This document shows, one piece after another, positions 1,805-61,652 of a DNA stretch of 64,000 nt (position 1 is its first letter; each line of letters opens with the position of its first letter). Source of the DNA: Emticicia sp. BO119. Lineage in GTDB: Bacteria; Bacteroidota; Bacteroidia; Cytophagales; Spirosomataceae. The stretch lies in the NCBI RefSeq assembly GCF_013912375.1, contig NZ_JACETV010000001.1, positions 620,001 to 684,000 of the forward strand. Direction: 5' to 3'. The notes beneath the pieces were generated by a model. It saw nothing but the letters and a program-made list of their open reading frames with translations, searched no databases and had not been told where the DNA came from. Made by a program: the position numbers and the translations under genes.

Positions 1805-1844
1805 AGATTGTGAGTAATGCTTCTTTGTGAAGCGCAATTTTCTG

Positions 1845-3297: not shown

Positions 3298-3327
3298 TGA
3301 CTTAGGAAATTGATAAAATAAATAATA

Positions 3328-3363: not shown

Positions 3364-3369
3364 GAGTAA

Positions 3370-3966
3370 TTAACCTTCCAGTTCCTTTAATAATTCCTCT
3401 GCTTGCTGTAAAGTCTTACTATAGTATTTAATTACCCATCTTGAAAAAAAGGACAAGAAAATGTATCCAATGGGGATAGCAATTGCCCAGAAATATTTGT
3501 TTTCGTTGAGGCTACGTCCGCCTGTAAATTTTGGCATCAGTAAAATGACAAACACTAAAAGAATATAGGCAAACACTACGCTTACCTGCTGAAATCTGAT
3601 AAATCGCAGTCTCTGTTTGGCAAATTGTTTGAGTGTTTCTACGTATGGTTGATTTACATCTCCAATCGAGTTGATCTGGTAAAGTAAAACAAGGCTAATA
3701 ATTGGTAAAACTATTAACATCAAGGAGGTAATAATGCCAATTCCTTGAAAGAATAGAGTAGTTAGCTTATTAAAGTTAATAATCATATAGACTACAGCTC
3801 CAAAGGCAAATAGGGTTCCGAGCGATTCATGAAAGATTACTTTTTTCAATTTAGATTTGTATCTGATTTCTGTCATTTTTTCAATAGTTTTTGTTTTTAA
3901 AAAAGGTTGTTTCTCTTTGAGATTACCTGCTTCATCCCAAAGTGTTTTTAGTTCCTCTAATTCCAT
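3370..3966 (-). CDS. Membrane protein paired with ECF sigma factor
   Basis: The 198-residue protein begins MELEELKTLWDEAG, has a soluble N-terminal arm of about 45 residues, and then four likely transmembrane segments (about 47-65, 73-95, 125-145 and 158-178). Its start overlaps the end of the upstream ECF sigma gene by 35 bases, so the two are almost surely co-transcribed and translationally coupled. In Bacteroidota, sigma genes are often followed by membrane proteins with this N-terminus. By position it could be an anti-sigma or accessory protein, but it has no zinc-finger anti-sigma motif. Function inferred from context only. Confidence 0.65.
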   Translation of the reverse strand: MELEELKTLWDEAGNLKEKQPFLKTKTIEKMTEIRYKSKLKKVIFHESLGTLFAFGAVVYMIINFNKLTTLFFQGIGIITSLMLIVLPIISLVLLYQINSIGDVNQPYVETLKQFAKQRLRFIRFQQVSVVFAYILLVFVILLMPKFTGGRSLNENKYFWAIAIPIGYIFLSFFSRWVIKYYSKTLQQAEELLKELEG

Positions 3967-4459
3967 TACTTTTCGAATTTATATGTTGTCTCTTTAGTTT
4001 TTCTTTAATACGTTGTATTTTAGTACCTACATTGGTTGCTGTAATTCCAATTATTTTGGCAATTTCAGCATAGCTTTTGTTTTCTAAGTATAGCATAACA
4101 ATTCCCTTATCAAGCAAATTAAGGTTTTCGATTAGCTGTCGGAATAACTCCCATTTTTGTTCTTCTTCATTATTAAAATCGTCGTTATGGTTCAGTATTT
4201 GTTCATTTATCTCAACGGTCGAAACTCTTCTTTTAGCAATTTTTAGCTGATAAATAGCCACGTTTAGAGCAACCCGATACAGCCATGTATTTAAATTGGA
4301 TTGCTGTTTGAAAGAATCGAAAGATTTCCAGAGCTGATAAATGATTTCCTGTACTAAATCAGCTTTGTCATCAGTATTATTGGTATAAACTGATGCAATC
4401 TTGAAAATTAGTCTTTCATTTTCCTTGATGGCTTTGATGAATATCTCTTTTTTTTCCAC
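3932..4459 (-). CDS. ECF-type RNA polymerase sigma factor (sigma-70 family)
   Basis: A 175-residue ECF sigma factor. Region 2 is visible as ADLVQEIIYQLWKSFDSF followed by LNTWLYRVALNVAI. Region 4 is visible as KSYAEIAKIIGITATNVGTKIQRIKEKLK, the helix-turn-helix that reads the -35 element. It heads a two-gene unit with the overlapping membrane protein and is divergent from a second ECF sigma module across 193 bp, so both may be controlled from the same gap. Regulon unknown. Confidence 0.9.
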   Translation of the reverse strand: MEKKEIFIKAIKENERLIFKIASVYTNNTDDKADLVQEIIYQLWKSFDSFKQQSNLNTWLYRVALNVAIYQLKIAKRRVSTVEINEQILNHNDDFNNEEEQKWELFRQLIENLNLLDKGIVMLYLENKSYAEIAKIIGITATNVGTKIQRIKEKLKRQHINSKSNGIRGTKNTLG

Positions 4460-33671: not shown

Positions 33672-33676
33672 TCTTG

Positions 33677-33753
33677 GCTTTAGGGGTATTCTGAAAAAGA
33701 ATTGAGAGAGTCCCTTTGAACCTGATACGGTTGAGACCGACGTAGGGAAAAGC
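33677..33753 (+). promoter_or_regulatory. TPP riboswitch (THI element)
   Basis: P1 is formed by GCTTT (33677-33681) with AAAGC (33749-33753). The aptamer holds TAGGGGTATTC, then TTGAGAGAG, CCTTTGAACCTGAT and GACGTAGGGAA, the conserved THI-box sequences. It lies directly upstream of thiM and should repress the operon when thiamine diphosphate is plentiful. The 87 bases between P1 and thiM hold no strong terminator, so control of translation start is more likely (inference). Confidence 0.95.
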
Positions 33754-33840
33754 GAATAATAGAGAGCCTTGCGCCTTATATATTATCCTCTTTTATTTCA
33801 GGGAAATCTTCTTTAGCCATTGTATTTAAATTCAAAAACA

Positions 33841-40251: not shown

Positions 40252-41706
40252 ATGAAAGAGAAATCAGACAAATCTCGGAGAGAATTTATTAAGAAAGGAG
40301 CAATTGCTTCTTCTTTTTTTATTGTCCCCAGAAATGTACTTGGTGGTCTTGGGTTTATTTCGCCCAGCGACCAGCTAAACATTGCGGCCATCGGCGCCGG
40401 TGGTAAAGGCCGGAGTGATATAACCAATGCCTCAGTAAAAGGCAGAGAGCGAATAGTAGCTCTTTGTGATGTTGACTTTTCGGGTTCAGCCAGCCAGACA
40501 GTAAAGCAGTTTCCAAACGCCAAATTGTATGCCGACTACCGTGAAATGCTGGATAAAGAGAAAGACATAGACGCTGTTACTATCTCTACTCCTGACCACG
40601 TGCATGGCCCTGCCGCTAAATTTGCTATGGAGCGTGGCAAACACGTATATGTGCAAAAACCGATGACACACAACATCCGTGAGGCACGTATGTTGACCGA
40701 GATGGCCCGTACACGTAAAATTGTAAGCCAGATGGGTAATCAGGGTGCATCAAACCCGCTACTGAAGACTGTACAAGGCTGGATTGATTCGGGTAAATTG
40801 GGTAAAATTGCCAAAGTACAGATCTGGACAAACCGGCCGGTATGGCCACAAGGCAATGCCATGCCAAAGCCTGATGAAGCCTTAAAACCAAAAGAACTTG
40901 ACTGGAATTTATGGCTCGGGCCTAATGAATTTAAACCTTATGTACCTGGTATGCACCCATTTGGCTGGCGTGGCTGGTGGGATTATGGCACAGGTGCTTT
41001 AGGAGATGTGGGTTGCCACCTGATAGATATTCCGTTCAGAACATTAGGTCTGAAATATCCTACTGATGCTGAATGTAGTGTAGGAACACTCTATACCAAG
41101 AGATCACCGGAATATAATCCTGAAGGTTGTCCAGCATCCTCATTGATTACACTTCATTTTGATGCCACAAAAAAGAGCCAGTCCCGCATTGAAATGACCT
41201 GGATGGATGGCGGTATCAGACCTGCGCATCCGGATCTTATTCCTGCCAATGAAGACATGGGCGGTACTAACGGTAGCAATGGTGTAATGATTATTGGTGA
41301 TAAAGGAATCATCACTACCAATATCAATGATAGCTCACCAATGATGCCGAAATTATACCTGAGCGATGGCACAAGAGAAGTTGGCCCTGATTTGCCAAAA
41401 GATATTGAACCTGAATATGGTCACCAACGTAGATGGGTAGATGCCTGTAAAGCAGGGTTTAATAGTAAAGAACATAAAGAATTAACATCGTCTTTTGATT
41501 ATGCAGGCCCAATGACAGAAACCGTATTAATGGGTAATCTGGCTATCAGAAGTTTTCTGTTGAAGCGGGATAATGGCAAAGGTCAGGCTGAATTCTTTGC
41601 CCGCAAAAAACTATTGTGGGATGGTGAAAACATGAGAATCACTAACCTTGAAGAAGCCAACCAGTTTGTAGGCAGAGCATCTTATCGTGAAGGTTGGAAA
41701 GTATAA
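40252..41706 (+). CDS. Tat-exported Gfo/Idh/MocA-family oxidoreductase
   Basis: 484 residues. A twin-arginine signal, SRREFIKKGAIASSFF, opens the protein. The Rossmann fold follows (NIAAIGAGGKGRSD), then ALCDVDFSG, STPDHVHGPAAKFAMERGKH in part, and the lysine of VQKPMTHN, the usual catalytic or substrate-binding EKP position. It likely binds NAD(P) before export and acts on a sugar or inositol derivative in the periplasm. Single gene. Confidence 0.9.
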   Translation: MKEKSDKSRREFIKKGAIASSFFIVPRNVLGGLGFISPSDQLNIAAIGAGGKGRSDITNASVKGRERIVALCDVDFSGSASQTVKQFPNAKLYADYREMLDKEKDIDAVTISTPDHVHGPAAKFAMERGKHVYVQKPMTHNIREARMLTEMARTRKIVSQMGNQGASNPLLKTVQGWIDSGKLGKIAKVQIWTNRPVWPQGNAMPKPDEALKPKELDWNLWLGPNEFKPYVPGMHPFGWRGWWDYGTGALGDVGCHLIDIPFRTLGLKYPTDAECSVGTLYTKRSPEYNPEGCPASSLITLHFDATKKSQSRIEMTWMDGGIRPAHPDLIPANEDMGGTNGSNGVMIIGDKGIITTNINDSSPMMPKLYLSDGTREVGPDLPKDIEPEYGHQRRWVDACKAGFNSKEHKELTSSFDYAGPMTETVLMGNLAIRSFLLKRDNGKGQAEFFARKKLLWDGENMRITNLEEANQFVGRASYREGWKV

Positions 41707-41726
41707 TTGAAGTAAATTTAGATATA

Positions 41727-41758
41727 TAAAGGCATAAGTAATATTATTTATGCCTTTA
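41727..41758. terminator. Terminator hairpin between convergent genes
   Basis: Perfect 11-bp inverted repeat TAAAGGCATAA (41727-41737) with its complement at 41748-41758, in the gap between the convergent oxidoreductase and ABC-F genes. T-tract is short (TTATT). Confidence 0.65.
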
Positions 41759-41830
41759 TTATTTGATTAGGGGAGTATTGTATCAGTACTTCGCCTTATT
41801 TTGGAATAATGTTCCTATTTATGTCATAAG

Positions 41831-43441
41831 TTAATATTTGTGATCAGCCTTTGGTATCTCAATTTGTTTTTTTATCGCAATTTCATTAATAAAATACTGG
41901 TCGTGAGAAATGACCAAAAGAGTACCATCATAATATTTAATAGCCTCAATCAATACTTGCTGGCTATATGTATCTAAATTATTGGTTGGCTCATCTAATA
42001 TAATCATATCAGGCATATTGGTGTTTATAGCAAAACAACACAGAATTAGTTTCATTTTTTCTCCTCCGCTCAGAAAAAGACATTTTCTTTCCCACAAATC
42101 ATTTGAAAACTGATGATAATGCAGGAGCATTTTCAGATAATGTTCAGGCAGATGGCGTTCGTTGAATTGTTGTATTTGTTCAAAAACTGTCAGTTGATTA
42201 TCAATAACAGAGTAATCCTGGTCCAGATAGAAGTACTTAAACTCTGCCCTGTAGATTGTTCCATAAGATGGTTCAAATACACCTGTAATTAGTTTAAGAA
42301 GGGTACTCTTACCGGTGCCGTTATTACCTTCAATTCTGATTCTATCTCCTGAACGGATTTGAAAAGAGAAATTCTTGTGCCAAAGCATTGTAGTTCCATA
42401 AGAGTAATTAAGTTCTATGGCTTCTACCAGAATTTTCCCTTTGTGTAAGTCCGATTTCCTTAAATCTATTTTTAATATCTTTTGCGTCTTGATCTCCGCC
42501 TGCGTTTGACGAAGATTGTCTCCTGCCTCATGTATTTTTTCGTGAAGAATATCTTTCATTTTGGCAGTACTTACTTCAGCCTTGCTTTTCAGATTCCCGG
42601 CTATTATTTTTGGTAGATTCTGTTTTTTTCCATTTGCTTTGCCTCTTGATTCTTGTTTTTGTCGTTGCTCATTCAGTTCTCTTGCTTTTTTTTGGGTTTG
42701 TTTCAAAGCCTTTTGTTTTTCTTCCAGTTGTGATTCAAGTGCCTTTAATTTTCCATCGTTTTGCACTTTATAGAATTCGTAATTTCCCCCATATATCTCT
42801 ATTCCATTTTCAGAGAGTTCAAGCGTTTGATTCAGGAGGTTTAACAAGGTTCTGTCATGGCTCACTATTAAAATAGTCTGTTTACTTTTGCTGATAAATT
42901 TATAAAGCAACTCGCGACTCTCTCTATCTAAGTGATTGGTGGGTTCATCGAGCACAATGATTTCTGGTTTGTAAATCTGGATACCTGCCAAGAAAACTTT
43001 GGTCTTTTCGCCGCCACTCAATAAGTGCATAGGATGGTATAGGGATAAATGTTGCAAATGCCAATATGAAAACGCCTCCTTTATTCGCTCTTCAATTGTC
43101 CAGTCATCATTTAATAATATATAGGTCTCAGCAGAAACATCGCCCATCAGTATAGCTCCCAAAGCTTTTAATTTATTTTCAATGCCTAAAGCTTGTGCTA
43201 CGTTCAAATGATTATACTCACCTAAATGTTGAGGCACATAATATGGTTTTTCAGTATGAAAAACGGCACCAGCAGATGTCTGTAATTGTCCGGCAATTAT
43301 TTTCAGTAAAGTTGATTTGCCAGAACCATTATTTCCCACTAAGGCAGCTTTCTGACCTTTGAGAATGACAAAACTTATATTTTGAAACAGAGTGGTTTTG
43401 TCTGAAAGCGTATAAGAAATAGATTTAATAATGATACTCAT
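41831..43441 (-). CDS. ABC-F family ATPase
   Basis: 536 residues with two nucleotide-binding domains and no membrane segment. Walker A GNNGSGKST and GNNGTGKST, signatures LSGGEKTKV and LSGGEKMKL, Walker B LDEPTNHLD and LDEPTNNLD. A charged linker (about 230-310) joins them; it holds many Lys/Gln/Glu. ABC-F proteins act on the ribosome; some protect it from antibiotics. Resistance is not proven by sequence, but the leader upstream of this gene resembles those of inducible resistance genes (inference). Confidence 0.9.
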   Translation of the reverse strand: MSIIIKSISYTLSDKTTLFQNISFVILKGQKAALVGNNGSGKSTLLKIIAGQLQTSAGAVFHTEKPYYVPQHLGEYNHLNVAQALGIENKLKALGAILMGDVSAETYILLNDDWTIEERIKEAFSYWHLQHLSLYHPMHLLSGGEKTKVFLAGIQIYKPEIIVLDEPTNHLDRESRELLYKFISKSKQTILIVSHDRTLLNLLNQTLELSENGIEIYGGNYEFYKVQNDGKLKALESQLEEKQKALKQTQKKARELNEQRQKQESRGKANGKKQNLPKIIAGNLKSKAEVSTAKMKDILHEKIHEAGDNLRQTQAEIKTQKILKIDLRKSDLHKGKILVEAIELNYSYGTTMLWHKNFSFQIRSGDRIRIEGNNGTGKSTLLKLITGVFEPSYGTIYRAEFKYFYLDQDYSVIDNQLTVFEQIQQFNERHLPEHYLKMLLHYHQFSNDLWERKCLFLSGGEKMKLILCCFAINTNMPDMIILDEPTNNLDTYSQQVLIEAIKYYDGTLLVISHDQYFINEIAIKKQIEIPKADHKY

Positions 43442-43686
43442 ATATAAATTGATGTAAAAACGTGAAGAATAAGATGCAATGAGCCAAACAAACCAAAACG
43501 TGTTTGTGGCATTTGCGCAATAAAGAATAATATATGAAGAAGGTATTACATGATTACTAAGACTGCCCTCAACAGAAAGAAGTGTTTGAGGGGAATTGAC
43601 ATTAGAGTTATCAAAACATTCCGCTGATTCGGAATCTATAAGAGCCCAATAGCTCTACTTAGTATCTTACATGGAGTATCTTTTAT
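43442..43686 (-). promoter_or_regulatory. Structured 5' leader of ABC-F gene
   Basis: About 245 nt from predicted transcription start to ATG. Three hairpins in transcript order: AGAGC/GCTCT with 6-base loop (43641-43656), ATTCCG/CGGAAT with 6-base loop (43618-43635), and the uORF hairpin (43566-43592). A weaker CAAAC/GTTTG pair near 43480-43510 follows. Pattern fits transcription or translation attenuation. Confidence 0.5.
43546..43602 (-). CDS. Leader peptide (uORF) before ABC-F gene
   Basis: ATG at 43602, 18 codons and TAA at 43546-43548, giving MSIPLKHFFLLRAVLVIM. It lies between the promoter (43693-43724) and the ABC-F start (43441). A 7-bp hairpin, CCCTCAA/TTGAGGG at 43566-43592, is wholly inside it, so a stalled ribosome would hold it open. 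Such uORFs are known before inducible ABC-F and erm genes in Firmicutes; the function here is inferred. Confidence 0.5.
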   Translation of the reverse strand: MSIPLKHFFLLRAVLVIM

Positions 43687-43692
43687 TTTTTG

Positions 43693-43724
43693 CAAAATTA
43701 AAGATTTTGGTTGTATTCTGCAAA
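43693..43724 (-). promoter_or_regulatory. Bacteroidota-type promoter of ABC-F gene
   Basis: On the minus strand: TTTG at 43724-43721, 20 bases, then TAATTTTG at 43700-43693, a full match to TTTG-N19/20-TAnnTTTG. The best promoter match in the window. Confidence 0.8.
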
Positions 43725-43865
43725 TATCAACTGATATGCGTTCTAATCTGATTAACTTTTATTTTGCTTAAGCGTAAAATACCACTCATAAAGTTTTAAA
43801 GTTTTTTCAGATTCAAATGTTTAATTTTACAGCAACCTAAATAAAACTATCCTGCCTTTACGTTT

Positions 43866-44723
43866 ATGCCAAAAGCACACACCATTGATAGAGTAAAATC
43901 CTCTGCAGACTTTAAATTAGAAAGGGTTATAACTAAGATTTTCTATTGGACTCGTATTTTATTAATTACTACCGTATGGGTAAGTGCTGGGCTCTTCGGG
44001 CTTTATATACTGGCTTTCTACGCTGCCGCGCTTTATCAGGGTAATTTAGAAAAATGGAACGGAGTTTTGCCGGGCTTATATGACCCAAATACCCAAAAAG
44101 CTACTATGGGCATTGGTTTACACTTTGCTATGGGGGGCATCGTTCTGATATTGGGTAGCATTCAGTTAATTGATGCTATCAGAATCAAATACCTGACGTT
44201 TCATCGATGGATAGGGCGTATTTATATAACGGCTTCTATTCTGGTTGCTGTTGGAGGTCTCTTCTTTATCTTAGCCAAAGGTACTATCGGTGGTACAGTG
44301 ATGAATATCGGTTTTGGTCTTTATGGTGGTCTGATGCTGGTGGCGGCTATTCAAACCTACAGGTATGCTGTTACCAAAAATCCGGACACCCACAGAGCAT
44401 GGGCATTAAGACTTTATGCTTTGGCCATTGGTTCATGGTTATATCGCATGGACTATGGGTTCTGGTTTATGCTGACCGACAAAGCCGGACATAACAATAC
44501 TTTTACAGGGGCATTTGATTATGTCATGGCTTTTTTCTTTTATATTCCTAATCTGTTGGTAGCTGAAATTTTTATACGCTCCCAGAATAAAAGTAAGACT
44601 TCTCTATGGCTGAATCTGTTTTTTATACTGGTTTTATGGTGTGTGATAAGTTTTCTGCTCCTGGCTACCTATTATTTCACAAAACTATACTGGGTCCCGG
44701 CCATTCTGGAGTGGTTGTTTTAA
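43866..44723 (+). CDS. DUF2306 membrane protein
   Basis: 285 residues with about seven membrane segments. FHRWIGRIYI, then THRAWALRLYALAIGSWLYR with conserved His and Arg, mark DUF2306, a family of cytochrome-b561-like or ferric-reductase-like membrane proteins of unknown function. It is followed 103 bp later by the serine-hydrolase homologue on the same strand. Confidence 0.82.
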   Translation: MPKAHTIDRVKSSADFKLERVITKIFYWTRILLITTVWVSAGLFGLYILAFYAAALYQGNLEKWNGVLPGLYDPNTQKATMGIGLHFAMGGIVLILGSIQLIDAIRIKYLTFHRWIGRIYITASILVAVGGLFFILAKGTIGGTVMNIGFGLYGGLMLVAAIQTYRYAVTKNPDTHRAWALRLYALAIGSWLYRMDYGFWFMLTDKAGHNNTFTGAFDYVMAFFFYIPNLLVAEIFIRSQNKSKTSLWLNLFFILVLWCVISFLLLATYYFTKLYWVPAILEWLF

Positions 44724-44826
44724 GAAATGAAACAAGGTATCGCGACTTAGCAAAATCGTGGGTTTTTAATCAGATTAAAAAAATAACCGTATATTCAATG
44801 TTTATTTCATTGAGCCTGATTACTTT

Positions 44827-46197
44827 ATGATGCGGTCTGCTTTATTAGGAGTATTTGCCTTACTATTTGTCCATCAATCGCTTATTGCACAAAATAAGGT
44901 AGCTATTATTGATACCTTGCTTAATCGGCTGAATCAGAAAAATCTTTTTAATGGCGCTATTGTAGTAGGTGAGCGAGATAGTATTTTACTAAGTAAAGGG
45001 TATGGATATGCTAATTTTTCAAGCACCACTCCATTTACTCCTGATATACCCACTGATGGAGGGGCTATTGCCGAAACCCTGACAGCAACCGCTATTTTAT
45101 TATTGGCCGACCAACAAAAACTGAGTCTTTTAGACTCAGTGCAGCAATATATTCCTGAATATCCTTATGCCAATACCCAAATCTGGAATTTACTCACACA
45201 TAGCACTGGCGGATTGCAGGATTATGGATATTATTTCGAGAAAATACCCGCCACTTATGTACTGAATACCAAGGCTATGCTTACTTTGCTGAATGAGCAA
45301 AAACCAGCTCTACTATACCCACCTGATAGCAATTTTAGTTATGATAGTCCAGGTTTGGATATTGCCGCAGCTATTGTTGAGCGTGTGAGTGGAGAATCTT
45401 ATCAGACATTTCTGAGTAAGAATTTCTTTGAACCACTCAAAATGCAGCAGTCATTTATAAGACCTCCCTTACTTAATCAGTGGCCCGGAGAAAGAATAAA
45501 GGCTTATACTTATGAAAATGATGTTTTAGAATTGGCCGACATTGGTGACCGTGAGGGTTTTTATGGTGGTAGCAATATCTGGTTTTCAGCCAATGATTTG
45601 TATAAATGGGGAAAATCTTTTTATCACCAACCGATAGTAGACGAATCTCTTATCCGTATCATTACTTCATGGGTATCTATTCAAGGCAAGCTTTCTGCCT
45701 TGCGTTTAGGTGGCTGGTATCAGGGCAGAAATAGTAATGCGCATTATTTTTGGGGAAGCGTAGCCGGATTCTACAGTTTTGTTTATTGGGATAGTCAACA
45801 GCAGTTTACTATTGCTTTTGTGAGTAATACAAATATACCTCAGTGGGTCAGACCTCAACTGACTTCGGCTTTGATAGATATTATGGAAGGCCATCGGGAA
45901 CAACCAATAGTTGAGCCATTGGCCGAAAATGTGAGCGAGAAACAAATGCAACCGATGGTAGGTAAGTATAGTATAGATGGGGTAGGGCTTGTAGAAATCT
46001 ATCTTAAAGAAAATATCCCTTACCTGCGGGCGCAATCTGAAATGGAATATAGAATCTTGCTGGTTGATGGGAAGACTTTTTATGTACCAGGCTTAGACCC
46101 ATGGATTTCGTTCCAGAAAAGACAGGGAGATAAATTTCAGAATTTATTGTGGCGTACGAGTTATTCGGAATCGAAAGGGAGTAGAGTAGAGGAGTGA
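44827..46197 (+). CDS. Secreted beta-lactamase-fold protein lacking catalytic residues
   Basis: 456 residues with a signal peptide (cleavage near residue 22). The class C/AmpC-like domain (about 30-350) is clear from GAIVVGERDSILLSKGYGYAN in part, TATAILLLADQQKLSLLDSV in part, and LLTHSTGGL. But the SxxK motif reads GAIAE (Ala80 for Ser, Glu83 for Lys) and the YxN motif reads YDS (172-174). A C-terminal DUF3471-like beta domain follows. Likely a pseudoenzyme with a binding role; all the same, the fold is intact and no frameshift is present. Confidence 0.8.
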   Translation: MMRSALLGVFALLFVHQSLIAQNKVAIIDTLLNRLNQKNLFNGAIVVGERDSILLSKGYGYANFSSTTPFTPDIPTDGGAIAETLTATAILLLADQQKLSLLDSVQQYIPEYPYANTQIWNLLTHSTGGLQDYGYYFEKIPATYVLNTKAMLTLLNEQKPALLYPPDSNFSYDSPGLDIAAAIVERVSGESYQTFLSKNFFEPLKMQQSFIRPPLLNQWPGERIKAYTYENDVLELADIGDREGFYGGSNIWFSANDLYKWGKSFYHQPIVDESLIRIITSWVSIQGKLSALRLGGWYQGRNSNAHYFWGSVAGFYSFVYWDSQQQFTIAFVSNTNIPQWVRPQLTSALIDIMEGHREQPIVEPLAENVSEKQMQPMVGKYSIDGVGLVEIYLKENIPYLRAQSEMEYRILLVDGKTFYVPGLDPWISFQKRQGDKFQNLLWRTSYSESKGSRVEE

Positions 46198-46320
46198 GAT
46201 GAAAGAATCAGAAAGCGAGCTGGAATTCGCGAAGCATTATTTTTACAACAAAATTGATTTTACCTAAATTAGATATACGTATTGTCGAAAATGGCTAACG
46301 CGATTTTATTTTTATAAAAG

Positions 46321-46340
46321 TGTGTGGATTTAGTATTTTA
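46321..46340. repeat. 20-bp direct repeat, left copy
   Basis: TGTGTGGATTTAGTATTTTA, 19 of 20 bases identical to 48330-48349, same orientation. It ends 4 bp before the recT stop codon. The two copies, 2,009 bp apart, bracket recT and the hairpin array. Confidence 0.7.
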
Positions 46341-46344
46341 TAAC

Positions 46345-47235
46345 TTACGCCGATTTCCTGTACAACTCCTGCTTACGGGTTTCATACATCTCTACCAGCC
46401 CAAAGTCATACACGTGTTCATCAACTAATTCCAGTTGTTCCAGAGTTCTGGCATTAGAGATAAAATCCGCAATACGCTGGAGTTCTTTTTCCTTGCTTGT
46501 TTCTTCTTGGTCGTTATTTTCTAACTGATTATCAATATATTCTACCTCTGTTCCTTCTACATTATGTATCACTGACTGGTCGGTAATTACAGCCTTTTGC
46601 ATTTCAACAGAGAGCGGAGCATCACCACTATTCAGGTGTAGCTTTGTTACGGTTTTAAGGGCCATTTTGTCGAAATCCTCTGCCCATAAGCCCTTTCCGT
46701 TTTTAAAAGTCTGTGAGTATCTTTTGCCATGCCGATGCACCGAATCAGCATCCATGAAAAAAGTACTTTCGTAGCCATTCAGCAGTCTGAAATTACTTGC
46801 ATAGCCAATCACTTTATCGCTTAGTTTTTTGTCCCATTCAAAATGAAAACCCTGAAACGATTCATCCTCTATCTTTTGCCCTTCGTACACAATCTTGGCA
46901 TCCATTGTCTGGTACTGTCCGCTACGAATTGCTAATTGTTTAAAACCTTTATAACCAATCAGGAACTGTGCGAGCTGCCGACCGCTCTTTCTGTCATTAT
47001 AAGGTACCAGATAGGCAAAGCCAAGATTATTGCTCAAAGGTAAATCTAAAGTAGCGGCTGTTGCTGCGGCATGATACACGCTGGTTGGATCGGCTCTTTT
47101 CAGTAATTCATTACTGGCTACAATCTGAAGAACCGAGGTCATAAAAGCGGGCGCTCTTTTGCCCAGTAATTCTTCAAATTTTTGTTTGACGGAGGTCTTA
47201 CTGAAAAAATCTTTAGTTGTTAACTGCTCTGACAT
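46345..47235 (-). CDS. recT: RecT family single-strand annealing protein
   Basis: 296 residues. FAYLVPYNDR, AQFLIGYKGFKQLAIRSGQY in part, FEWDKK and WAEDFDKMALKTVTKLHL in part are typical RecT/Bet-class annealing-protein motifs. RecT binds single-stranded DNA and anneals complementary strands, normally with an exonuclease partner (RecE), which is absent here. The C-terminal 75 residues are acidic and low in similarity. Phage genes of this class are often captured by chromosomes. It is divergent from an S24 repressor gene, across 1.27 kb that holds the hairpin array. Confidence 0.92.
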   Translation of the reverse strand: MSEQLTTKDFFSKTSVKQKFEELLGKRAPAFMTSVLQIVASNELLKRADPTSVYHAAATAATLDLPLSNNLGFAYLVPYNDRKSGRQLAQFLIGYKGFKQLAIRSGQYQTMDAKIVYEGQKIEDESFQGFHFEWDKKLSDKVIGYASNFRLLNGYESTFFMDADSVHRHGKRYSQTFKNGKGLWAEDFDKMALKTVTKLHLNSGDAPLSVEMQKAVITDQSVIHNVEGTEVEYIDNQLENNDQEETSKEKELQRIADFISNARTLEQLELVDEHVYDFGLVEMYETRKQELYRKSA

Positions 47236-47500
47236 TTTTAGTTAATTTGTTATGATTTGGGATTATTTTTCTATTCAAAAGTGAGGCAGAAAGCATGATT
47301 TTCTACACTTTGGGGAAGTATTTATTAAACACTCTTTTATATATGGGTTGAAGATATAAACATAATTTTCCTGATTCTGGTTTGCAGCCGGAACAGGCTT
47401 TTACTTTTAAAAGATTATCGACAGAAGCGTATTATTTAACGTTTTTTATAGGCATTTTATTGGGTTTTACAGGGTTTATATGCTCAGCTGTTTGAGTTTA
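47236..47500. other. recT upstream region
   Basis: 265 bp with no ORF. On the minus strand CACTTTTG near 47277-47284 resembles a -7 box, about 45 bases before the recT start. GGGTTT occurs twice near 47460. Confidence 0.3.
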
Positions 47501-48054
47501 AAAACACCTTCCCCAAACGGAAGAGGGTTTGGTGATCCTCCTAAATAATAAACCTTACTAAACTGTATTATGCTAAAAAACAGCAGAAAGACGCTTAAAA
47601 AACTTCTTCTAATAAAAAGGATTCAGGTTGTATTTCAGAACCTGATCCGGTAAGTTATTTATCAGGTAAGAAAAACTTCAAAAAATGCCTCCTCCAAAAT
47701 GAAGGAGGATTTTATCTGTTTCCCTAAACGTGTTTAACAAAGACAATTTCTTTTGAAAAACACCTCCTTCAAACGAAGGAGGGTTTTACTATATATTCCT
47801 AACCTTACTAAATAAGCCATCTGTTTGCGCTTCCTATCCTATTAAAAACACCTCCTCCGAATAGAGGAGGGTTTCTATCCTTCTATTCTAACCCAAAAAT
47901 CAATATATGAATAGTCACGGCATTCAATATGAATTTTCAAAAAATACCTCCTCCATAGGGAGGAGGATTTTCTAATAAATATTAGTCATGAAATAAATGC
48001 ACATCAATTTTTGACCGTGTGTCAAAAACACCTCCTCTAAAAAGAGGAGGATTT
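47501..48054. repeat. Array of six covarying CCTCC/GGAGG hairpin repeats
   Basis: Copies at 47501-47530 (weak), 47681-47713, 47756-47787, 47844-47874, 47939-47971 and 48024-48054; a decayed one is possible at 47597-47623. Each has AAAAACACC or a close form, CCTCC-rich left arm, 4-6 base loop, GGAGG-rich right arm and GTTT/ATTT. Stems covary: CCTCCTTC/GAAGGAGG (third), CCTCCTCC/GGAGGAGG (fifth), CCTCCTCT/AGAGGAGG (sixth). Spacers of 42-65 bp between neighbours (150 bp across the decayed site) are unrelated, so selection acts on structure. On the minus strand each hairpin is followed by TGTTTTT or ATTTTTT like a terminator. Confidence 0.8.
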
Positions 48055-48329
48055 AAACACTACATACGCATCAATAAAAATCTTGAACGGATTACAGATA
48101 ATCTGGCTAAATCCTTTGCTTTGACAAGGGAGTCCAGACAATTACACATAACTGTGAACTGATTGATTACCTGGTAAATATCATCTACTATTTACCGAAC
48201 TACTTTGCTTCGGGTTGTGTGGTATTTTCGGGGCAAAGGAGTTAGATGTAGTTTGTCAGATTTTCTATTATACGACCATGACACTTGTTGTTAAATACTT
48301 TTGCATTTTGCTTTAAGCATAATAATGTT
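48055..48329. other. Region between hairpin array and right direct repeat
   Basis: 275 bp, no ORF of coding character on either strand and no further copy of the hairpin repeat. Confidence 0.35.
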
Positions 48330-48349
48330 TGTGTGGATTTAGTGTTTTA
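48330..48349. repeat. 20-bp direct repeat, right copy
   Basis: TGTGTGGATTTAGTGTTTTA, one base different from 46321-46340. It ends 20 bp before the -33 box of the S24 repressor promoter. Confidence 0.7.
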
Positions 48350-48368
48350 AAAAATTTATAAAATTTTT

Positions 48369-48399
48369 ATTGTACAATTACATATTTTCTCTATTTTTG
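48369..48399 (+). promoter_or_regulatory. Promoter of S24 repressor gene
   Basis: ATTG (48369-48372), exactly 19 bases, then TATTTTTG (48392-48399), matching the Bacteroidota consensus with one mismatch in the -33 box. Transcription would start near 48406, just before two palindromes. Confidence 0.7.
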
Positions 48400-48418
48400 T
48401 TTATGAAAAATAAACTTG

Positions 48419-48459
48419 TTCGTAATTACGAAACAAATTTAACGAACTTGTTCGTTAAA
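48419..48459. promoter_or_regulatory. Two palindromic operators of S24 repressor
   Basis: TTCGTAATTACGAA (48419-48432) is a perfect 14-bp palindrome. TTTAACGAAC (48438-48447), TT, GTTCGTTAAA (48450-48459) is a perfect 10-bp inverted repeat. Both use TTCG/CGAA half-sites and lie about +13 to +53 of the predicted start, ideal for autorepression. Confidence 0.7.
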
Positions 48460-48508
48460 TGCAAGTAAAATTTGAAAATTATTTTTATTTTTTTAACATA
48501 ATCAGACG

Positions 48509-49204
48509 ATGACTATTGGCATACCTGCGGTAAGTGGAACTGAAATCAAGAATTTTCGCAAGAAAAATAAGCTTTCTCAGAATGAGTTCGCCGAACTTGT
48601 TGGTGTAACCATGAGGGCGGTACAGTTATGGGAAAGTGGTGACAGGAATGTATCAAGCCTTGCAGAAAAGACTATCAGAGAGGTGTTTTTGAATTATAAA
48701 AAAGCCGGATTGGAGAATGCTTATGTCAATACTAATGGTAATAAGTTTATCAGTAATACAGATGGAGATCTGATTGTGGAAGTGCCTTTACTCACAACTG
48801 AGGCATTTGCCCGTTATCTTGACGAATTAAGCGATGCTGGCACATTTCAGTTTGAAGAAAGAGTGCCTTTTGTAGTTGATAAAATAGACAGAGGTAATTT
48901 TATTGCTTTCCGGATTTCCGGGGATAGTATGAACGGAGGTAGAATAGATGATACCCCCGACAGAGCTACTGTATTAGGCAAAGAATTATCGATGGATTTG
49001 TGGATGGACGGTTTCGGAGAATCAAGATTCGGGTGGATTATCCTTACCAAGCGCAATGTATTGTTTAAAGATATTATAGCTTTTGATAGAGCAACAGCTA
49101 CCATTACCTGCCATAGCCGCAACGATAGCCCCGAATACTGTGATTTCAAACTCTCATTAAATGATGTACACAAGATTTTTAAAGTAATGAAGAGGACTTT
49201 TTAA
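48509..49204 (+). CDS. XRE/S24-family (LexA/CI-like) repressor
   Basis: 231 residues. An N-terminal XRE helix-turn-helix (KLSQNEFAELVGVTMRAVQLWESG, given here as FAELVGVTMRAVQLWESG) and a C-terminal S24 peptidase-like domain with FRISGDSMN (nucleophile Ser) and a Lys in VLFKDI as candidate general base. Such proteins are phage-type repressors that self-cleave after RecA activation. No clear Ala-Gly cleavage site was seen. Divergent from recT; adjacent promoter and operators suggest autoregulation. Confidence 0.88.
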   Translation: MTIGIPAVSGTEIKNFRKKNKLSQNEFAELVGVTMRAVQLWESGDRNVSSLAEKTIREVFLNYKKAGLENAYVNTNGNKFISNTDGDLIVEVPLLTTEAFARYLDELSDAGTFQFEERVPFVVDKIDRGNFIAFRISGDSMNGGRIDDTPDRATVLGKELSMDLWMDGFGESRFGWIILTKRNVLFKDIIAFDRATATITCHSRNDSPEYCDFKLSLNDVHKIFKVMKRTF

Positions 49205-49217
49205 GGTGGTTTATTAA

Positions 49218-50603
49218 TTAGTTAACTTCTGACTTGTCCTGTGGTGTAGGTATTCTCAACTGCATTTTTTTTCTTATTAAATTAATCATCTCTTTTTCTT
49301 TTTTGTTCCAGTAGCCAATATGAGACCAGAAAGGTATAATATTTCCGGTTTTTGACTTTGTTCTTAGAAAATGGTTTTCAACCCCATGCCCGAAAACATG
49401 ATTATTTCCTCCAACAAAATCTTTTTCGAAAGTAATGTTTGTCCAGCGGGTAAGGGCAAATGGAGCTGCATGATGTAAGAAATTAACCTCTGAAATCGGA
49501 AAATGGAAGGTTTTTTCGCCTTCAGGTGTCGGCGGGCAGGTAGGGTATTCTCTTTCTGCCTGTTTCTTTACTAATTCCTCCGGGTTACCTGCAAGCAATA
49601 GTTTGGCATGGGCTAACGGACTACCTAAAGTAATAAAATCAGAAACCCGCCAAGAATCAAGCCTATTGAACTGGCTCTTCCACAGTTTAAGCTGTATTTC
49701 CCTGAAAGTATCTCTGTTTTTCGCTGTGGGGTTCTTACTCAAGTTATAAGCAGCATCTTCAATTTCTGTTAACTGAGTATCTGTCAACTTAATAGTTCCG
49801 TTATGTTTTATCCATAAAAATTTAATTAAATCGTAGGCAACTACAGCCCCTAAACTATGGCCTACCACAATAATACGGTCATATTTGTTCCTTTTGTAAG
49901 TACTCCCATCTTTATTTCTGACATCTATTTTGGCATCATGTAGTTTTCTGAGCAATTCAATGCCTGTTTCTCTTATATCCTGCCTTTCTTTAATATTACC
50001 TGCACGTGGAGTTGTATAACGTACAACATCACCTAAATAATAGATAAGAAAGAAATTAATACCCAACCAGGTCAGACTACCCAGATACTTTCCTACGAAC
50101 TTAAGGTAGCAGCAAAAATGCGTTTTTACAAAATCATAATCATATATATTTTTAATTAGATTTTCCGGGCATTTGTCCTCTTTCATTAAAGGATAGCTCA
50201 GAATAAATAATAAACTCATAAAAATACTTACCCAGAAGAACCAATAAATCCAGCGCAGCCTGTCAGGAATATTTTTTGGTCGTCTTAAAAGAATTGTCCA
50301 GAACCACCATAAAACATCCATCAATTTTGTACCACTCATCTTGTGTGCCCAATAGTATTCAAAATAGTCAGTTTTAAAAGTAAACCTATGTTCGTTGGCA
50401 GTAAGTCTCCTGAGCTCAAAAGTTTCAGACAGCACATCTGGTTTATTAAAAAACTTTTGTTTTTTACTATGAGGTATTTCCGGAGCAATTGATTCCACAA
50501 ATTCACGGAGTGTATCCATGGGTTTTTGCTCTCCCATTCCGTGAATTACAAGTACTGCCTGACGTTGAATATTAAATTTATTTTCGTTAAATTCTTCTGG
50601 CAT
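49218..50603 (-). CDS. Alpha/beta hydrolase with membrane segments
   Basis: 461 residues. AVLVIHGMGEQKP near the N-terminus (oxyanion-type HG) and IVVGHSLGAVVAYD with the GxSxG nucleophile elbow mark a lipase/esterase-like hydrolase. Two hydrophobic segments (about 125-145 and 180-200) interrupt the fold, so it is probably anchored at the membrane. A catalytic His candidate lies in GGNNHVFGHGVENHF near residue 415. Convergent with the S24 repressor gene (13 bp apart). Substrate unknown. Confidence 0.75.
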   Translation of the reverse strand: MPEEFNENKFNIQRQAVLVIHGMGEQKPMDTLREFVESIAPEIPHSKKQKFFNKPDVLSETFELRRLTANEHRFTFKTDYFEYYWAHKMSGTKLMDVLWWFWTILLRRPKNIPDRLRWIYWFFWVSIFMSLLFILSYPLMKEDKCPENLIKNIYDYDFVKTHFCCYLKFVGKYLGSLTWLGINFFLIYYLGDVVRYTTPRAGNIKERQDIRETGIELLRKLHDAKIDVRNKDGSTYKRNKYDRIIVVGHSLGAVVAYDLIKFLWIKHNGTIKLTDTQLTEIEDAAYNLSKNPTAKNRDTFREIQLKLWKSQFNRLDSWRVSDFITLGSPLAHAKLLLAGNPEELVKKQAEREYPTCPPTPEGEKTFHFPISEVNFLHHAAPFALTRWTNITFEKDFVGGNNHVFGHGVENHFLRTKSKTGNIIPFWSHIGYWNKKEKEMINLIRKKMQLRIPTPQDKSEVN

Positions 50604-50804
50604 ATAAGGTAGGTTTTCCTAAAGATAGGTAGACCCGACAGGCTCTCCAAATCTTTACAATGGTTTTTATTTTAAGGTTTATTGTTTGATTACTTTCAGC
50701 TATTTTGAGAGATTTAAGTAAGTGCCAGAAGATAATTAAACTAAAGCCTGATTTTTAAATGATTTTTCTTGTATGGTTAAAGCTTCTGCTTTAGCTTTGT
50801 CTTT

Positions 50805-50823
50805 ATTTAGATTCTATCTAAAT
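50805..50823. promoter_or_regulatory. Short inverted repeat before BNR gene
   Basis: ATTTAGAT (50805-50812), TCT, ATCTAAAT (50816-50823): perfect 8-bp arms in the divergent gap, 60 bp before the sialidase-like gene. A regulator site or chance in AT-rich DNA. Confidence 0.35.
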
Positions 50824-50882
50824 AATATTATCTAAGAATTAGAAAAATAGATTAAATTCTATAGCATTATTCATTTAACTAA

Positions 50883-52127
50883 ATGATTTCGCAAATGAAG
50901 AAAAATAGTTTTTTATTGATGGCTCTTCTCACACTTGGGCTATCAGAAGTAGTTTTGGCACAGAATACTCATTTTGGTGATGCTACCCATGCCTATACTT
51001 TACCAACATTCACTAAAAATAATCTGGGCGAGCCAGTTTTATATTGGACAGAAAAAGGTGATGATAATATATTAGCTCTCTACTTCTCGGTTTCGAAAAA
51101 TGGGGGAAGGAGTTTTAGTGACAAAAAACTCATCTATTTGGATGCTGGCCTTGGGAGTAGTCGATTAATGAGGCCAAAACTATTATTTAAGAAAGATGGT
51201 ACTATGGCTGCGATATTTTCATACCGCAAGGTAGTAGCCGCCCCCGCTGCTCCATCTACGCATGAGGGAGGCCATGGAAATCATGTAAAACCCGAAACTC
51301 CAGAGCCGAGACCCAAACGTGAATCACAAATCAGATATACGGTTTCAAAAGATAATGGTAATACCTGGACTAACCCAACTTCGGTCGATTCGGATACAAC
51401 AAGATTAATAAGAGGTTTCTTTGATGCGGTTGTTTTGCCAAACGATGAAATTGCGGTGGCATATCTGAAAGATGTGAAAGGCAGCACCAAACATGAAGAG
51501 CGAGACCTTCGGATGGTAATTACTAAAAACAACATATTTCAACCAGAAAAATTGATTGACCCTGTGGTGTGTGATTGCTGTAATATAAGCTTATTAGTTG
51601 ATAACAATGGAAAATTGAATGTTTTTTACCGTGATAATAATAATGATATTCGTGATATTGCCCGTATAGCTTCTTCAGACAACGGTGCTACTTTCACAAA
51701 ACCAGAAATTCTTCGTAACGATAAATGGGAGATCAAGGGCTGTCCGCATTCAGGAGCAACTTCAGTAGCTACTGCTAACGGTGCTTTAATAACCTGGTTT
51801 TCAGGTGCGAATGAGCAATCAGGGGTAAGATTAGTAGATGAAAATGGAAAATTGTTAAAGGTATTAAGTGCAAATGCCAAAAATGGTCAGGTATCAGCCG
51901 ATGGTAAAAAAGGTATTTTTGTATGGGAACAAACTACTGAAGGCGGTGCAAGCCAGATTTTTTACAGCAAAGTGGTGAGTGGAAAAGTACTCGACGATCA
52001 GTTAGTAAACGGCTCAGACTACGGCCAGAATGCCACAAGTATATTGATCAATGGAAAATTATTAATAGCCTTTGAAGTTGCCAAACCTAATCAAAGAACG
52101 GCTTTGATAGTGAGGGTGGTAGAGTAG
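50883..52127 (+). CDS. Secreted BNR-repeat/sialidase-like protein
   Basis: 414 residues with a signal peptide; the second ATG at 50895 (MKKNSFLLMALL) gives a tidier one. Asp-box repeats SKNGGRSFSD, SKDNGNTWTN and SSDNGATFTK mark a six-bladed propeller of the sialidase superfamily. A CDCC cluster (VVCDCCNISLL) is unusual and may bind metal or form disulfides. The catalytic Arg triad of true sialidases cannot be placed, so enzymatic activity is uncertain. Confidence 0.8.
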   Translation: MISQMKKNSFLLMALLTLGLSEVVLAQNTHFGDATHAYTLPTFTKNNLGEPVLYWTEKGDDNILALYFSVSKNGGRSFSDKKLIYLDAGLGSSRLMRPKLLFKKDGTMAAIFSYRKVVAAPAAPSTHEGGHGNHVKPETPEPRPKRESQIRYTVSKDNGNTWTNPTSVDSDTTRLIRGFFDAVVLPNDEIAVAYLKDVKGSTKHEERDLRMVITKNNIFQPEKLIDPVVCDCCNISLLVDNNGKLNVFYRDNNNDIRDIARIASSDNGATFTKPEILRNDKWEIKGCPHSGATSVATANGALITWFSGANEQSGVRLVDENGKLLKVLSANAKNGQVSADGKKGIFVWEQTTEGGASQIFYSKVVSGKVLDDQLVNGSDYGQNATSILINGKLLIAFEVAKPNQRTALIVRVVE

Positions 52128-52150
52128 GAGAATGGAAAGTAGGGATTTTA

Positions 52151-52179
52151 AGCCAACGCAAAAGCGCTGGCTTTTTTTT
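52151..52179 (+). terminator. Rho-independent terminator after BNR gene
   Basis: Stem AGCCAACGC (52151-52159), loop AAAA, GCGCTGGCT (52164-52172), one mismatch, then eight T. Confidence 0.92.
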
Positions 52180-52250
52180 GTATTTCTTATCCGAAGCTTT
52201 GAACACACCTCTTCTTTTCGAAAATATTATTTTATTAATACGTTTGATCT

Positions 52251-52553
52251 TTATTGTCTGGTATTTTTTTCAGTAAAATCAGTTATAAAATTGCCGTCAT
52301 AGCAGTACAAACTTAAATTTTTTGCTCCAACCGAGATATTGCCATCTCTATCTTCAAAAATGCTCCCGATTGAAGTATTATCCAGACCTTCGAATGGAGA
52401 ACAGTTAAAAGTTTTACCATTATAAATACATATCCTGCCTTGGACTTTTCCTTCTTCATCCCAATTGGGGCCTCCAACACAGATATTTCCTTTTCTATCT
52501 ACTAAAATAGAAGTAATATCATAGTCGCAAAAACCATCAGTTTCAGTAAACTT
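52251..52553 (-). pseudogene. Remnant of a two-component-regulator propeller protein
   Basis: An open frame of 100 codons without start codon, ending TAA at 52251-52253, preceded in frame by a TAA at 52554-52556. Translated, it has two Reg_prop-type repeats, DRKGNICVGG and DRDGNISVGA, with YNGKTFNCSPFEGLD between, as in the N-terminal propellers of hybrid two-component sensors. No full gene surrounds it, so it is a decayed fragment. Confidence 0.65.
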
Positions 52554-52803
52554 TTAATTTCATAAAAAACTTTGAGACAGAAAATCTATAAGCTAAGTAA
52601 TAACCAATTATATAAAAAAATTAAAAGCTTGTAAGGAAAACAGATTCACATATGCGTTAAATATTTCATTCAATGATTGAAACTACTTCAATATTTTCCT
52701 TTTATTCTCTGCACAAATCATAAACCATCTTAGCAAGATGTAGTTTAACGCCCAAAAACGGACAGAAAACTGTACGATTTCGGACACTACATTTTTAATA
52801 ATA
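52554..52803. other. Intergenic region after propeller remnant
   Basis: 250 bp, no ORF; possibly further decayed coding sequence, but no repeat motif could be read. Confidence 0.3.
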
Positions 52804-52834
52804 CCTCTCTAAAAGTGTTTTTGAGAGGATTTTT
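52804..52834 (+). terminator. Orphan terminator hairpin
   Basis: CCTCTC (52804-52809) with GAGAGG (52823-52828), inner AAAA/TTTT pairs, then ATTTTTG. No plus-strand gene precedes it in 675 bp. Confidence 0.55.
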
Positions 52835-52849
52835 GTACTTGGCACTCCA

Positions 52850-52931
52850 TTTGTTTAACAAAATATAATCAAATAAATCTCGGCTTAATTAAATATGGAC
52901 TGAAGTAGGTTAGATTTATTTGTTTAGCAAA
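52850..52931. promoter_or_regulatory. Paired inverted repeats before padR-like gene
   Basis: TTTGTTTAACAAA (52850-52862) and TTTGTTTAGCAAA (52919-52931) differ at one base and are 69 bp apart, the second 33 bp before the PadR-family start. Candidate operator pair. Confidence 0.45.
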
Positions 52932-52964
52932 TAATAATGAAATACCTGATTAAATACTGAAACT

Positions 52965-53291
52965 ATGGGACGACCCTATTTAGGAGAATTTGAAGAACTG
53001 GTGCTACTGACAGTGGCGGTACTGGAAGGCGGCGCTTATGGTGTAGCAATTGCATCAGAACTTAAAAAACGAACCGACCGCATAATCAGCCTGAGCGGTG
53101 TACATATAGCCTTATATAGGTTGGAAGAAAAAGGATTTGTGAAGTCGGTATTAGGTGGAGCTACCAATGAACGTGGTGGGCGCCGAAAAAGATTATTCAA
53201 TATAACAGCTTTGGGTAAGCGTACATTGGATGAAATGCGCGATATACGTAACGAACTATGGACATCTATTCCGAAACTTTCGTTTTCGTGA
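52965..53291 (+). CDS. PadR-family transcriptional regulator
   Basis: 108 residues: a winged helix (GRPYLGEFEELVLLTVAVLE start shown in part as YLGEFEELVLLTVAV) with a GGRRKRLFNITALGKRTL wing. No effector domain beyond the helical tail, as in the short PadR-s2 type. It leads four FtsX-like permease genes on the same strand, and PadR regulators of this kind commonly adjoin such permeases. Confidence 0.9.
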   Translation: MGRPYLGEFEELVLLTVAVLEGGAYGVAIASELKKRTDRIISLSGVHIALYRLEEKGFVKSVLGGATNERGGRRKRLFNITALGKRTLDEMRDIRNELWTSIPKLSFS

Positions 53292-53391
53292 AAAATCGCA
53301 AATTAAGAATGGTGAATTCGTGAATAATTTGTAATCGTATTATTCGCTGATTCTCTACTCACTAATTAGCGATTTTACTAATAAATAAATT

Positions 53392-56040: not shown

Positions 56041-56088
56041 ATGTCAGAGAGCATGGGGCAAAGGGCATAGGGTTTTGAAACCAAAAAA

Positions 56089-56285
56089 TGTAAAATAATA
56101 AATGTAAAACCGAAAAATGCGGCAGCCGTTGCTGTAAAAGGATTTTGGCAAAACAATCAGGAAATATTTTACCACCCAAATGGGCAGACAAACTGCTGAT
56201 GACCTTCCTACCCGAAGATTTAGCAGAAGAACTGCAAGGGGATATGCACGAGCAGTTTGAAATGCAGGTGGAGGAGAGGGGTTTG
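56089..56285 (+). repeat. Duplicated block, copy A (intergenic plus gene start)
   Basis: About 190 bp nearly identical to 58806-58995, covering 55 bases of noncoding DNA (with GGCAGCCGTTGCTGTAAAAG) and the first 45 codons of permease 2. Differences are scattered single bases. Confidence 0.75.
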
Positions 56286-58775: not shown

Positions 58776-58805
58776 TGGCATAGGGCAAAGGGATAGAACC
58801 GAAAA

Positions 58806-58995
58806 ATATAAAATAATAAATGTAAAACCGAAAAATTTGGCAGCCGTTGCTGTAAAAGGATTTTGACAAAGCAATCAGGAAATATTTTACCCCCCAAATG
58901 GGCAGACAAACTGCTGATGACCTTCCTGCCCGAAGATTTGGCAGAAGAACTGCAGGGAGATATGCATGAGCAGTTTGAAGTGCAAGTAGAGGAAA
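58806..58995 (+). repeat. Duplicated block, copy B (intergenic plus gene start)
   Basis: Mate of 56089-56285. The only larger difference is an ATG in copy A (56117) that reads TTT here; that ATG is out of frame. Confidence 0.75.
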
Positions 58996-61523: not shown

Positions 61524-61652
61524 GGATAAACTTGAGCCGCCGCCGTACGATGCTTGTAACCTAATCCGAAATAGTGAGTTATCTACAGGCAATCAAGGCT
61601 TGTATTAAAATAATCACTAAATCACACATTCGCTCACAAACAAATAATATAA

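Follow-up and report, generated by a model that had tools for sequence, protein, structure and literature searches.

Why should a gene for a single-strand annealing protein in a bacterial chromosome adjoin a row of six similar hairpins, with one copy of a 20-bp direct repeat on either side? We addressed this question in the genome of Emticicia sp. BO119 (G000; 6.57 Mb in 28 contigs), from which a stretch of 64 kb (C1:620001-684000), hereafter the window, was analyzed; coordinates without a locus or contig name are positions in it. A sequence-only reading had offered two answers, a compact mobile unit with the repeats as its edges, or a phage-derived recombination module whose hairpins could serve as annealing substrates. 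Comparisons covered 11 genomes of the genus Emticicia, 222 genomes of the family, IMG/VR, and phage and plasmid records; the relatives referred to below are Emticicia sp. C21 (G001), E. agri 17J42-9 (G008) and Emticicia sp. 21SJ11W-3 (G002). Judging from sequence comparison, we consider it probable that the region is a retained early/immunity module of a temperate-phage-like element, in which the annealing protein is locked by both repression and termination.

RecT and the opposing repressor

The recT gene (46345-47235, minus strand; 296 aa) is recognized by PF03837 (120.8 bits, cut-off 24) and TIGR00616 (167.2 bits, cut-off 52.65), and its product is 94-95% identical in two Emticicia relatives. 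On the plus strand, at 48509-49204, lies the gene for a phage-type helix-turn-helix repressor of 231 aa. Its HTH_3 domain is clear, and an S24-like C-terminal part is indicated by weak homology: Peptidase_S24 was matched by the G002 homologue only (E = 0.13, below the cut-off), and a homologue from a Leeuwenhoekiella phage, 28% identical, is annotated as S24-like. The predicted structure of the repressor has a pLDDT of 45, too low to be informative.

Both genes are under strong purifying selection. For recT, the comparison of G000 with G001 gives pS = 0.69, pN = 0.035 and dN/dS of about 0.02, a rough value, like the other ratios given here, because synonymous sites are near saturation, and two further recT pairs yield no ratio. 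The corresponding values for the repressor are 0.64, 0.044 and 0.03, with dN/dS ranging from 0.02 to 0.04 over the pairs; for the hydrolase gene neighbouring recT, the same two genomes give 0.14.

Upstream of the repressor gene, two predicted promoters face each other. Available parts of two reports place the elements of Bacteroidota promoters, TTTG and TANNTTTG, at −33 and −7, respectively (PMC6847099; PMC9723704); at both predicted promoters the −33 element is shortened to TTG. The rightward one, presumed to serve the repressor, occupies 48370-48399 (plus strand; TTG-N19-TATTTTTG), and such a pair is found 110-111 nt before the start codon in all four genomes that carry a close repressor homologue. 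The leftward, early one lies at 48434-48464 (minus strand; TTG-N20-TAHHTTTG), 75 nt from the repressor start codon, again in 4/4. Operator-like sequences accompany both: TTGTTCG, conserved in all four genomes, is part of a palindrome, TTCGTAATTACGAA (48416-48432), which is complete in G000 only, and a dyad CGAAC-NN-GTTCG (48443-48454) within the spacer of the leftward promoter is intact in three genomes and has one arm changed in G001. The predicted arrangement is thus that of a phage early region, with a repressor opposed to an early operon and operators at the promoters. The leftward transcript would start with an untranslated recT leader of ~1.2 kb (47236-48427, minus strand; start point deduced from the promoter). 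Between the leftward promoter and recT the minus strand contains no exact TAnnTTTG. Three sigma-70-like sites were found on this strand of the leader, at 48294-48267 (11 of 12 positions), 48127-48098 and 47736-47709, and the 13 such sites in the region are a chance number (10.6 expected).

Six terminator-like hairpins in the predicted recT leader

The array comprises six hairpins of about 30 nt each within 0.56 kb, with hairpins 2 to 6 spaced at 75-96 bp. Numbered from recT and scored on the minus strand with the hairpin model, they are located at 47499-47532 (42.5 bits), 47680-47714 (47.8 bits), 47755-47788 (48.9 bits), 47843-47876 (43.8 bits), 47939-47972 (46.3 bits) and 48023-48056 (43.1 bits). 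The last of these, hairpin 6, would be the first to be met by leftward RNA polymerase.

To characterize their structure, we aligned 24 hairpins from five modules, the rows being related copies. The named stem, 13 pairs with one bulge, is paired in 92.6% of the cells. Double-changed cells number 18 against 5.9 in shuffles, with none of 500 shuffles reaching 18 and slid versions of the stem giving at most 9; pairs with a double change number 5 against 2.6, a value reached by 21 of 500 shuffles. The most informative pair is that of columns 8/31, across the bulge, where nine rows have C-G, eight U-A and three U-G, and four are unpaired. Read as leftward RNA, the 24 rows contain 24 G-U and six A-C cells. 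The 21 well aligned rows contain 15 and one, after three misaligned rows (G000_1, G002_3 and G000b_1), which hold 5/6 of the A-C and 9/24 of the G-U cells, had been left out post hoc upon inspection of the rows. When cells are collapsed by orthologous position, ten G-U stand against one A-C (binomial p = 0.012), so that the test amounts to about ten independent changes. The bias toward G-U in the leftward RNA suggests that the structure is not maintained as DNA or as RNA of the plus strand.

Folded in the leftward sense, the 24 hairpins have energies of −8.9 to −19.7 kcal/mol, with G+C-rich stems and short loops, and the fold of the leader as a whole has a z-score of −6.5 (20 shuffles). The nine bases 3′ of the stem include 4-8 T on the minus strand and 3-7 on the plus strand. 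Based on the covarying stems, the one-strand G-U bias and the U tracts, the hairpins resemble a tandem series of intrinsic terminators for transcription toward recT. Most of them have a 1-nt bulge, and one or two other bases precede the T tract (TGTTTTT), so that termination at such sites could be weak.

A terminator scan of 46200-49300 picked up 20 candidate sites, compared with 2.0 in shuffles; several of them overlap, and three are within recT. All six hairpins were recovered on the minus strand and four of the six on the plus strand; they could accordingly stop transcription in both directions.

In the hairpins, G000 shares 87-97% identity with G001 and 67-97% with G008, and in the spacers 47-83% and 52-74%, respectively. 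Identity to G001 and G008 is 50% and 57% in segment 47236-47495 and 50% and 26% in segment 48101-48329. Hairpins are thus clearly better conserved than spacers in the comparison with G001, but not clearly so in that with G008, where the contrast is weak.

The exact double-hairpin pattern occurs in 3 of the 222 family genomes, all from Emticicia (the strict pattern misses G002), and is absent from IMG/VR. The hairpin model has matches in 92/222 genomes, with at most 31 candidates scored per genome; on our reading of the places listed, those outside the four array genomes are scattered single sites. The idea of the array as a widespread repeat was consequently dropped, as the strict pattern is confined to Emticicia and the other model matches are isolated. 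Among the non-array matches listed, 18 of 26 start within 30 nt after a stop codon on the same strand and eight do not, a count based on same-strand ORFs of at least 80 aa, to which chance may contribute; a longer ORF encloses two of the 18 as well, and among the 26 a few have identical sequences. Such post-stop placing is usual for ordinary terminators. In a strict scan of 20 loci with distant or paralogous repressors no hairpin cluster was seen, but the scan also missed the known array of G008. Searching the same loci with the model revealed two hairpins in L109 and one each in L115 (20.9 bits) and L110 (20.7 bits), and nothing in the remaining 17 up to E = 0.5.

Occurrence and gene order in Emticicia

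A close homologue of the repressor (75-100% identity) is encoded in four of the 11 Emticicia genomes; G000 and G001 carry additional, more distant copies (53-56%). Array hairpins lie beside the repressor gene in the same four genomes, with one isolated match to the pattern elsewhere (G008:C19), and recT is present in three of the four, G002 being the exception. The constant partner of the array is therefore the repressor and not recT. In the family as a whole, RecT was found in 7/222 genomes, three of which are Emticicia, and the four loci outside the genus contain no match to this repressor. In IMG/VR, two distant recT loci were found (31% identity).

The conserved block extends from the left copy of the 20-bp repeat to the end of the repressor gene (49204) and takes in recT, the hairpin array (six hairpins) and the right copy. 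Beyond it, gene order differs. Leftward from the repressor, G000 has the array, recT and a serine-hydrolase gene, and G001 has the array, recT, a 123-aa ORF and the orthologous hydrolase gene. In G008 the array and recT are followed by p87, an O/DnaD-like initiator, a DnaC-like loader, a methyltransferase and an ATPase-domain protein, and the hydrolase gene lies ~8.4 kb away from recT in this contig. In G002 the order is a 136-aa ORF, the array, p87, the initiator and the loader, without recT. On the other side, an AHSA1 gene is found within ~1.2 kb 3′ of the repressor gene in G001, G008 and G002, and in G000 an unrelated gene of 461 aa abuts the repressor. Each flank, hydrolase and AHSA1, is thus shared by three of the four genomes; from this and the gene orders, the block is old and its neighbourhood partly shared. 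A 545-aa gene to the right of the cassette in G001 and G002 occurs elsewhere, without the cassette, in G000 and G008, indicating that the neighbourhood has been rearranged. Searches of the genus genomes via the flanking genes found no empty site, that is, one 20-mer copy with joined flanks; the seven cassette-free genomes also lack a close orthologue of the hydrolase, so the comparison is uninformative there.

Two observations were made on neighbouring genes. The ATPase-domain protein of G008 (L055 6876-9089; 737 aa) has HATPase_c_3 and HATPase_c domains and is encoded beside the DNA methyltransferase, beyond the replication genes; the two could form a defence pair. Early genes precede the hairpins in G002 (gene X, L056 10046-10456) and in the C24 module described below (gene Y, L109 7650-8021). 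Both are candidates for an antiterminator; a shared N-like antiterminator was considered for X and Y and is not claimed, their similarity being only E = 0.036.

A sister module and parallels in phages

Contig C24 of G000 contains a distant copy of the module, with a repressor 52-53% identical over its C-terminal part. Its early genes encode Z (83 aa) and Y (123 aa), followed by two hairpins, small ORFs, an ERF-family annealing protein (PF04404, 40.4 bits; cut-off 25), p87, a helicase, a reverse transcriptase, an O-like initiator and a DnaC-like loader. Scoring 42.6 and 21.7 bits on the early strand, the hairpins precede the ERF gene by ~0.75 kb, and the first of them overlaps the last part of the Y frame. 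A 58.7-kb IMG/VR record (UViG_2910316831_000003) is 100% identical over protein Y and over the 36 residues of Z contained in the locus, which places this region of C24 in a predicted viral stretch, and its position within a contig of 495 kb suggests a provirus. The two modules share a related repressor and the type and strand of the hairpins, with p87, the O-like initiator and the DnaC-like loader present in C24, but C24 has two hairpins to the window's six, its annealing protein is ERF and not RecT, and many more genes lie in between. Hence one type of hairpin precedes two unrelated kinds of annealing protein. Recombination and replication genes lie together in the early operon in G008, G002 and C24, and recT alone in the window. 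The reverse-transcriptase gene of C24 (L202 6755-7720; phrog_1423, E = 2e−118) is located between the helicase and initiator genes, and the helicase gene also matches methyltransferase families.

Lambdoid phages have an early operon to which the arrangement of this region can be likened. Another parallel is Leeuwenhoekiella phage Arctus_1, in which an S24-like repressor gene is divergent from nine small genes, recT, an exonuclease, SSB and others, and whose RecT is 43% identical to that of the window. The likeness is that the repressor gene runs opposite to an early operon encoding an annealing protein and replication proteins. Most of that operon is, however, missing in the window: the place of the nine small genes that precede recT in Arctus_1 (1820-4246) is taken by the six-hairpin array, and no ORF of at least 60 aa is found there. 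According to the available part of one report, the prophages of the Arctus_1 host, Arctus_1 included, are induced by mitomycin C (PMC11515562). Retention of recT in a defective prophage has a precedent in the Rac prophage of E. coli, where, as an excerpt of another report describes, recT is accompanied by a partner nuclease, RecE (PMC8987985); beside the recT of the window none was seen. The searches for whole-cassette DNA among phages and plasmids returned short pieces of recT in two phage records and no plasmid match, and those for the repressor protein two phage records and no plasmid. The hairpin model had no match in the regions examined of Bacteroides phage BF1-TP2 and Riemerella phage PT33; a region of Pasteurella phage Pmp10 was also looked at.

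The earlier proposal of a phage-derived recombination module is thus supported by the gene order in relatives, the C24 module and the Arctus_1 parallel. The locus itself is not a complete prophage: among the ten proteins scanned (40252-56040) there was no integrase or structural gene, no attachment site was seen beside the repressor, and no tRNA gene lies within the 64-kb window.

Proposed mechanism

The replication genes found beyond recT or the array in relatives, and the provirus-like module of C24, argue for an early/immunity region. With the repressor at the promoter, the operon would be silent, and stray transcription would be halted by the six terminators. Upon induction, leftward polymerase would have to read through all six or be modified to clear them, so that the annealing protein would be made under full induction only. 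DNA damage as the inducing signal is a guess, given the weak support for the peptidase part of the repressor. In G000 the downstream replication genes have been lost and recT alone is left, apparently for use by the host or by a residual phage.

Phage early regions, RecT and terminators are all known. Among the papers listed in the literature searches, we found neither six near-alike, ordered terminator-like hairpins between an operator promoter and recT, nor a paper combining RecT, a prophage and tandem terminators, nor a description of termination control of Bacteroidota phage early genes. The conserved row of six offers a direct way to ask whether a phage, or a piece retained from one, passes terminators by means of its own; a recT under strong selection without its phage prompts one to ask if it serves the host; and genome engineering in Cytophagales would profit from RecT-type proteins functional in this group.

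Alternative readings

The hairpins might be a passive barrier, made of leftover or insulating bidirectional terminators without any switch, with recT expressed by weak read-through or from an unseen nearby promoter. Terminator-like sites on both strands fit such a barrier, as does the fact that in G000 and G001 no replication genes stand beside recT. We nevertheless regard it as unlikely, because three species have retained six copies in order, recT and the repressor are strongly selected, and no exact TAnnTTTG lies on the minus strand between the array and recT.

Conversely, the leader may support true antitermination. The predicted terminators lie inside the operon, downstream of its main promoter, an arrangement that invites comparison with two known systems. 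As far as the available part of one report describes, conjugation operons have multiple terminators and an antitermination system at the operon start, as in conAn of pLS20 (PMC8955417), and in an excerpt of another, phage HK022 uses put RNAs to suppress termination in its early genes (PMC9378689). The common feature is that an operon belonging to a mobile element has terminators after its regulated main promoter; in the window, however, they are tandem, near-alike and placed in an untranslated leader. The candidate for a nut/put-like site is CURRAUCCACA, the core of the 20-bp repeat read as leftward RNA, which is found at ~+80 in all four genomes, with a second copy directly after recT that is altered in G008, where replication genes follow. 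We offer this role of the core as a suggestion. In its full form, a processive antitermination switch of Bacteroidota phages, with CURRAUCCACA carrying polymerase past six terminators and the annealing protein made from the operator promoter only, the reading seems to us rather improbable. No ConAn-like protein, put RNA or other antiterminator was identified, and the leader has no ORF of at least 60 aa. A search for a conserved fold in the first ~115 nt of the leader gave two weak stems (energy −2.6) with one compensatory pair in four sequences, which is no convincing support for an RNA structure around the +80 motif. The core, with at most one mismatch allowed, is absent from the leader of the C24 module, where the one near match falls within the repressor gene.

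Could each hairpin instead end a small RNA of its own? The spacing of hairpins 2 to 6 would fit a tandem series of RNAs of 75-96 nt, and four Rfam small-RNA families, including GcvB, match the recT strand below threshold, three of the matches ending at or near a hairpin U tract. The match to GcvB (minus strand, 47939-48129) scores 36.4 bits (gathering threshold 42; E = 8e−6), and the three others are weaker; these matches probably come from the terminator-like hairpins. To our knowledge, enteric small-RNA families are not to be expected in this phylum. As the spacers contain no TTG/TAnnTTTG pair on either strand and, from G000 to G001, are less conserved than the hairpins, small-RNA genes have little probability.

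A role at the level of DNA, with hairpins in single-stranded DNA used by RecT or the phage initiator as an origin or as a substrate for annealing or recombination, draws on the adjacency of the array to recT and on the nearby initiator and helicase-loader genes in G008 and G002. We judge it highly improbable: the one-sided wobble pattern, which also speaks against the annealing substrates of the sequence-only reading, points to RNA function of one strand, the array of G002 persists without recT, the C24 hairpins precede an unrelated ERF protein, and the flanking A and T tracts resemble terminators.

The 20-bp repeats

The two repeats were confirmed as 19/20 identical, with starts 2,009 bp apart. 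The left copy (46321-46340, plus strand; core TGTGGATTYAG) is directly 3′ of recT, 4 bp from its stop codon (46345-46347), as had been noted; its core is exact in two of the three recT-bearing genomes, G000 and G001, and reads TGTGAGATTCAG in G008. The right copy (48330-48349, plus strand; core TGTGGATYYAG) lies upstream of the repressor gene in all four genomes and is 85% identical between G000 and either G001 or G008. Its position upstream of the promoter of an "S24" repressor, as first described, was correct as to place; the S24 label is weakly supported, and the copy is also inside the predicted leftward leader, at ~+80 to +100. As claimed, recT and the array are all that the repeats enclose (no ORF of at least 60 aa between recT and the right copy), and no nuclease or transposase was seen beside recT or among the ten proteins scanned.

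Within its own genome the 20-mer pattern is exact at these two places only and hence is not a common genomic repeat. Four further places match with 2-3 mismatches, as do four for a reversed control pattern, and the 11-nt core alone, exact once elsewhere (L057), is not rare. Pairs of 20-mers with at least 19/20 identity within 3 kb were absent from 60 dinucleotide shuffles of 45001-50000 and from six whole-window shuffles; in the actual window there are 11, which fall at four distances and come from the array, this repeat and pairs starting at 56084 and 58893.

A compact mobile unit bounded by these repeats is hardly credible. Two near-identical copies, unique in the genome, would suit it, as would a left copy at or close to the point where similarity to G001 and G008 sets in. 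But the conserved block runs past the right copy through the repressor, the right core is regulatory DNA conserved in 4/4 genomes and occurs in G002 with the array and without recT, relatives share flanking genes, no empty site was found, and the ten proteins scanned include neither a transposase nor an integrase, so that neither a mobility gene, nor repeats at the ends of the block, nor an empty site supports defined edges. The unit also fails the check set out with the sequence-only reading, in that relatives retain the region in its place and show no empty site. Most likely, the repeat represents two copies of a short, probably regulatory, motif of the recT operon.

Elsewhere in the window, a MacB/FtsX-type permease gene was found at 53392-56040, and stretches of 53392-62900 that match the same places of G001 and G002 several times correspond to repeated permease genes. 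A TPP riboswitch is present at 33672-33765 (73.9 bits; gathering threshold 54.3).
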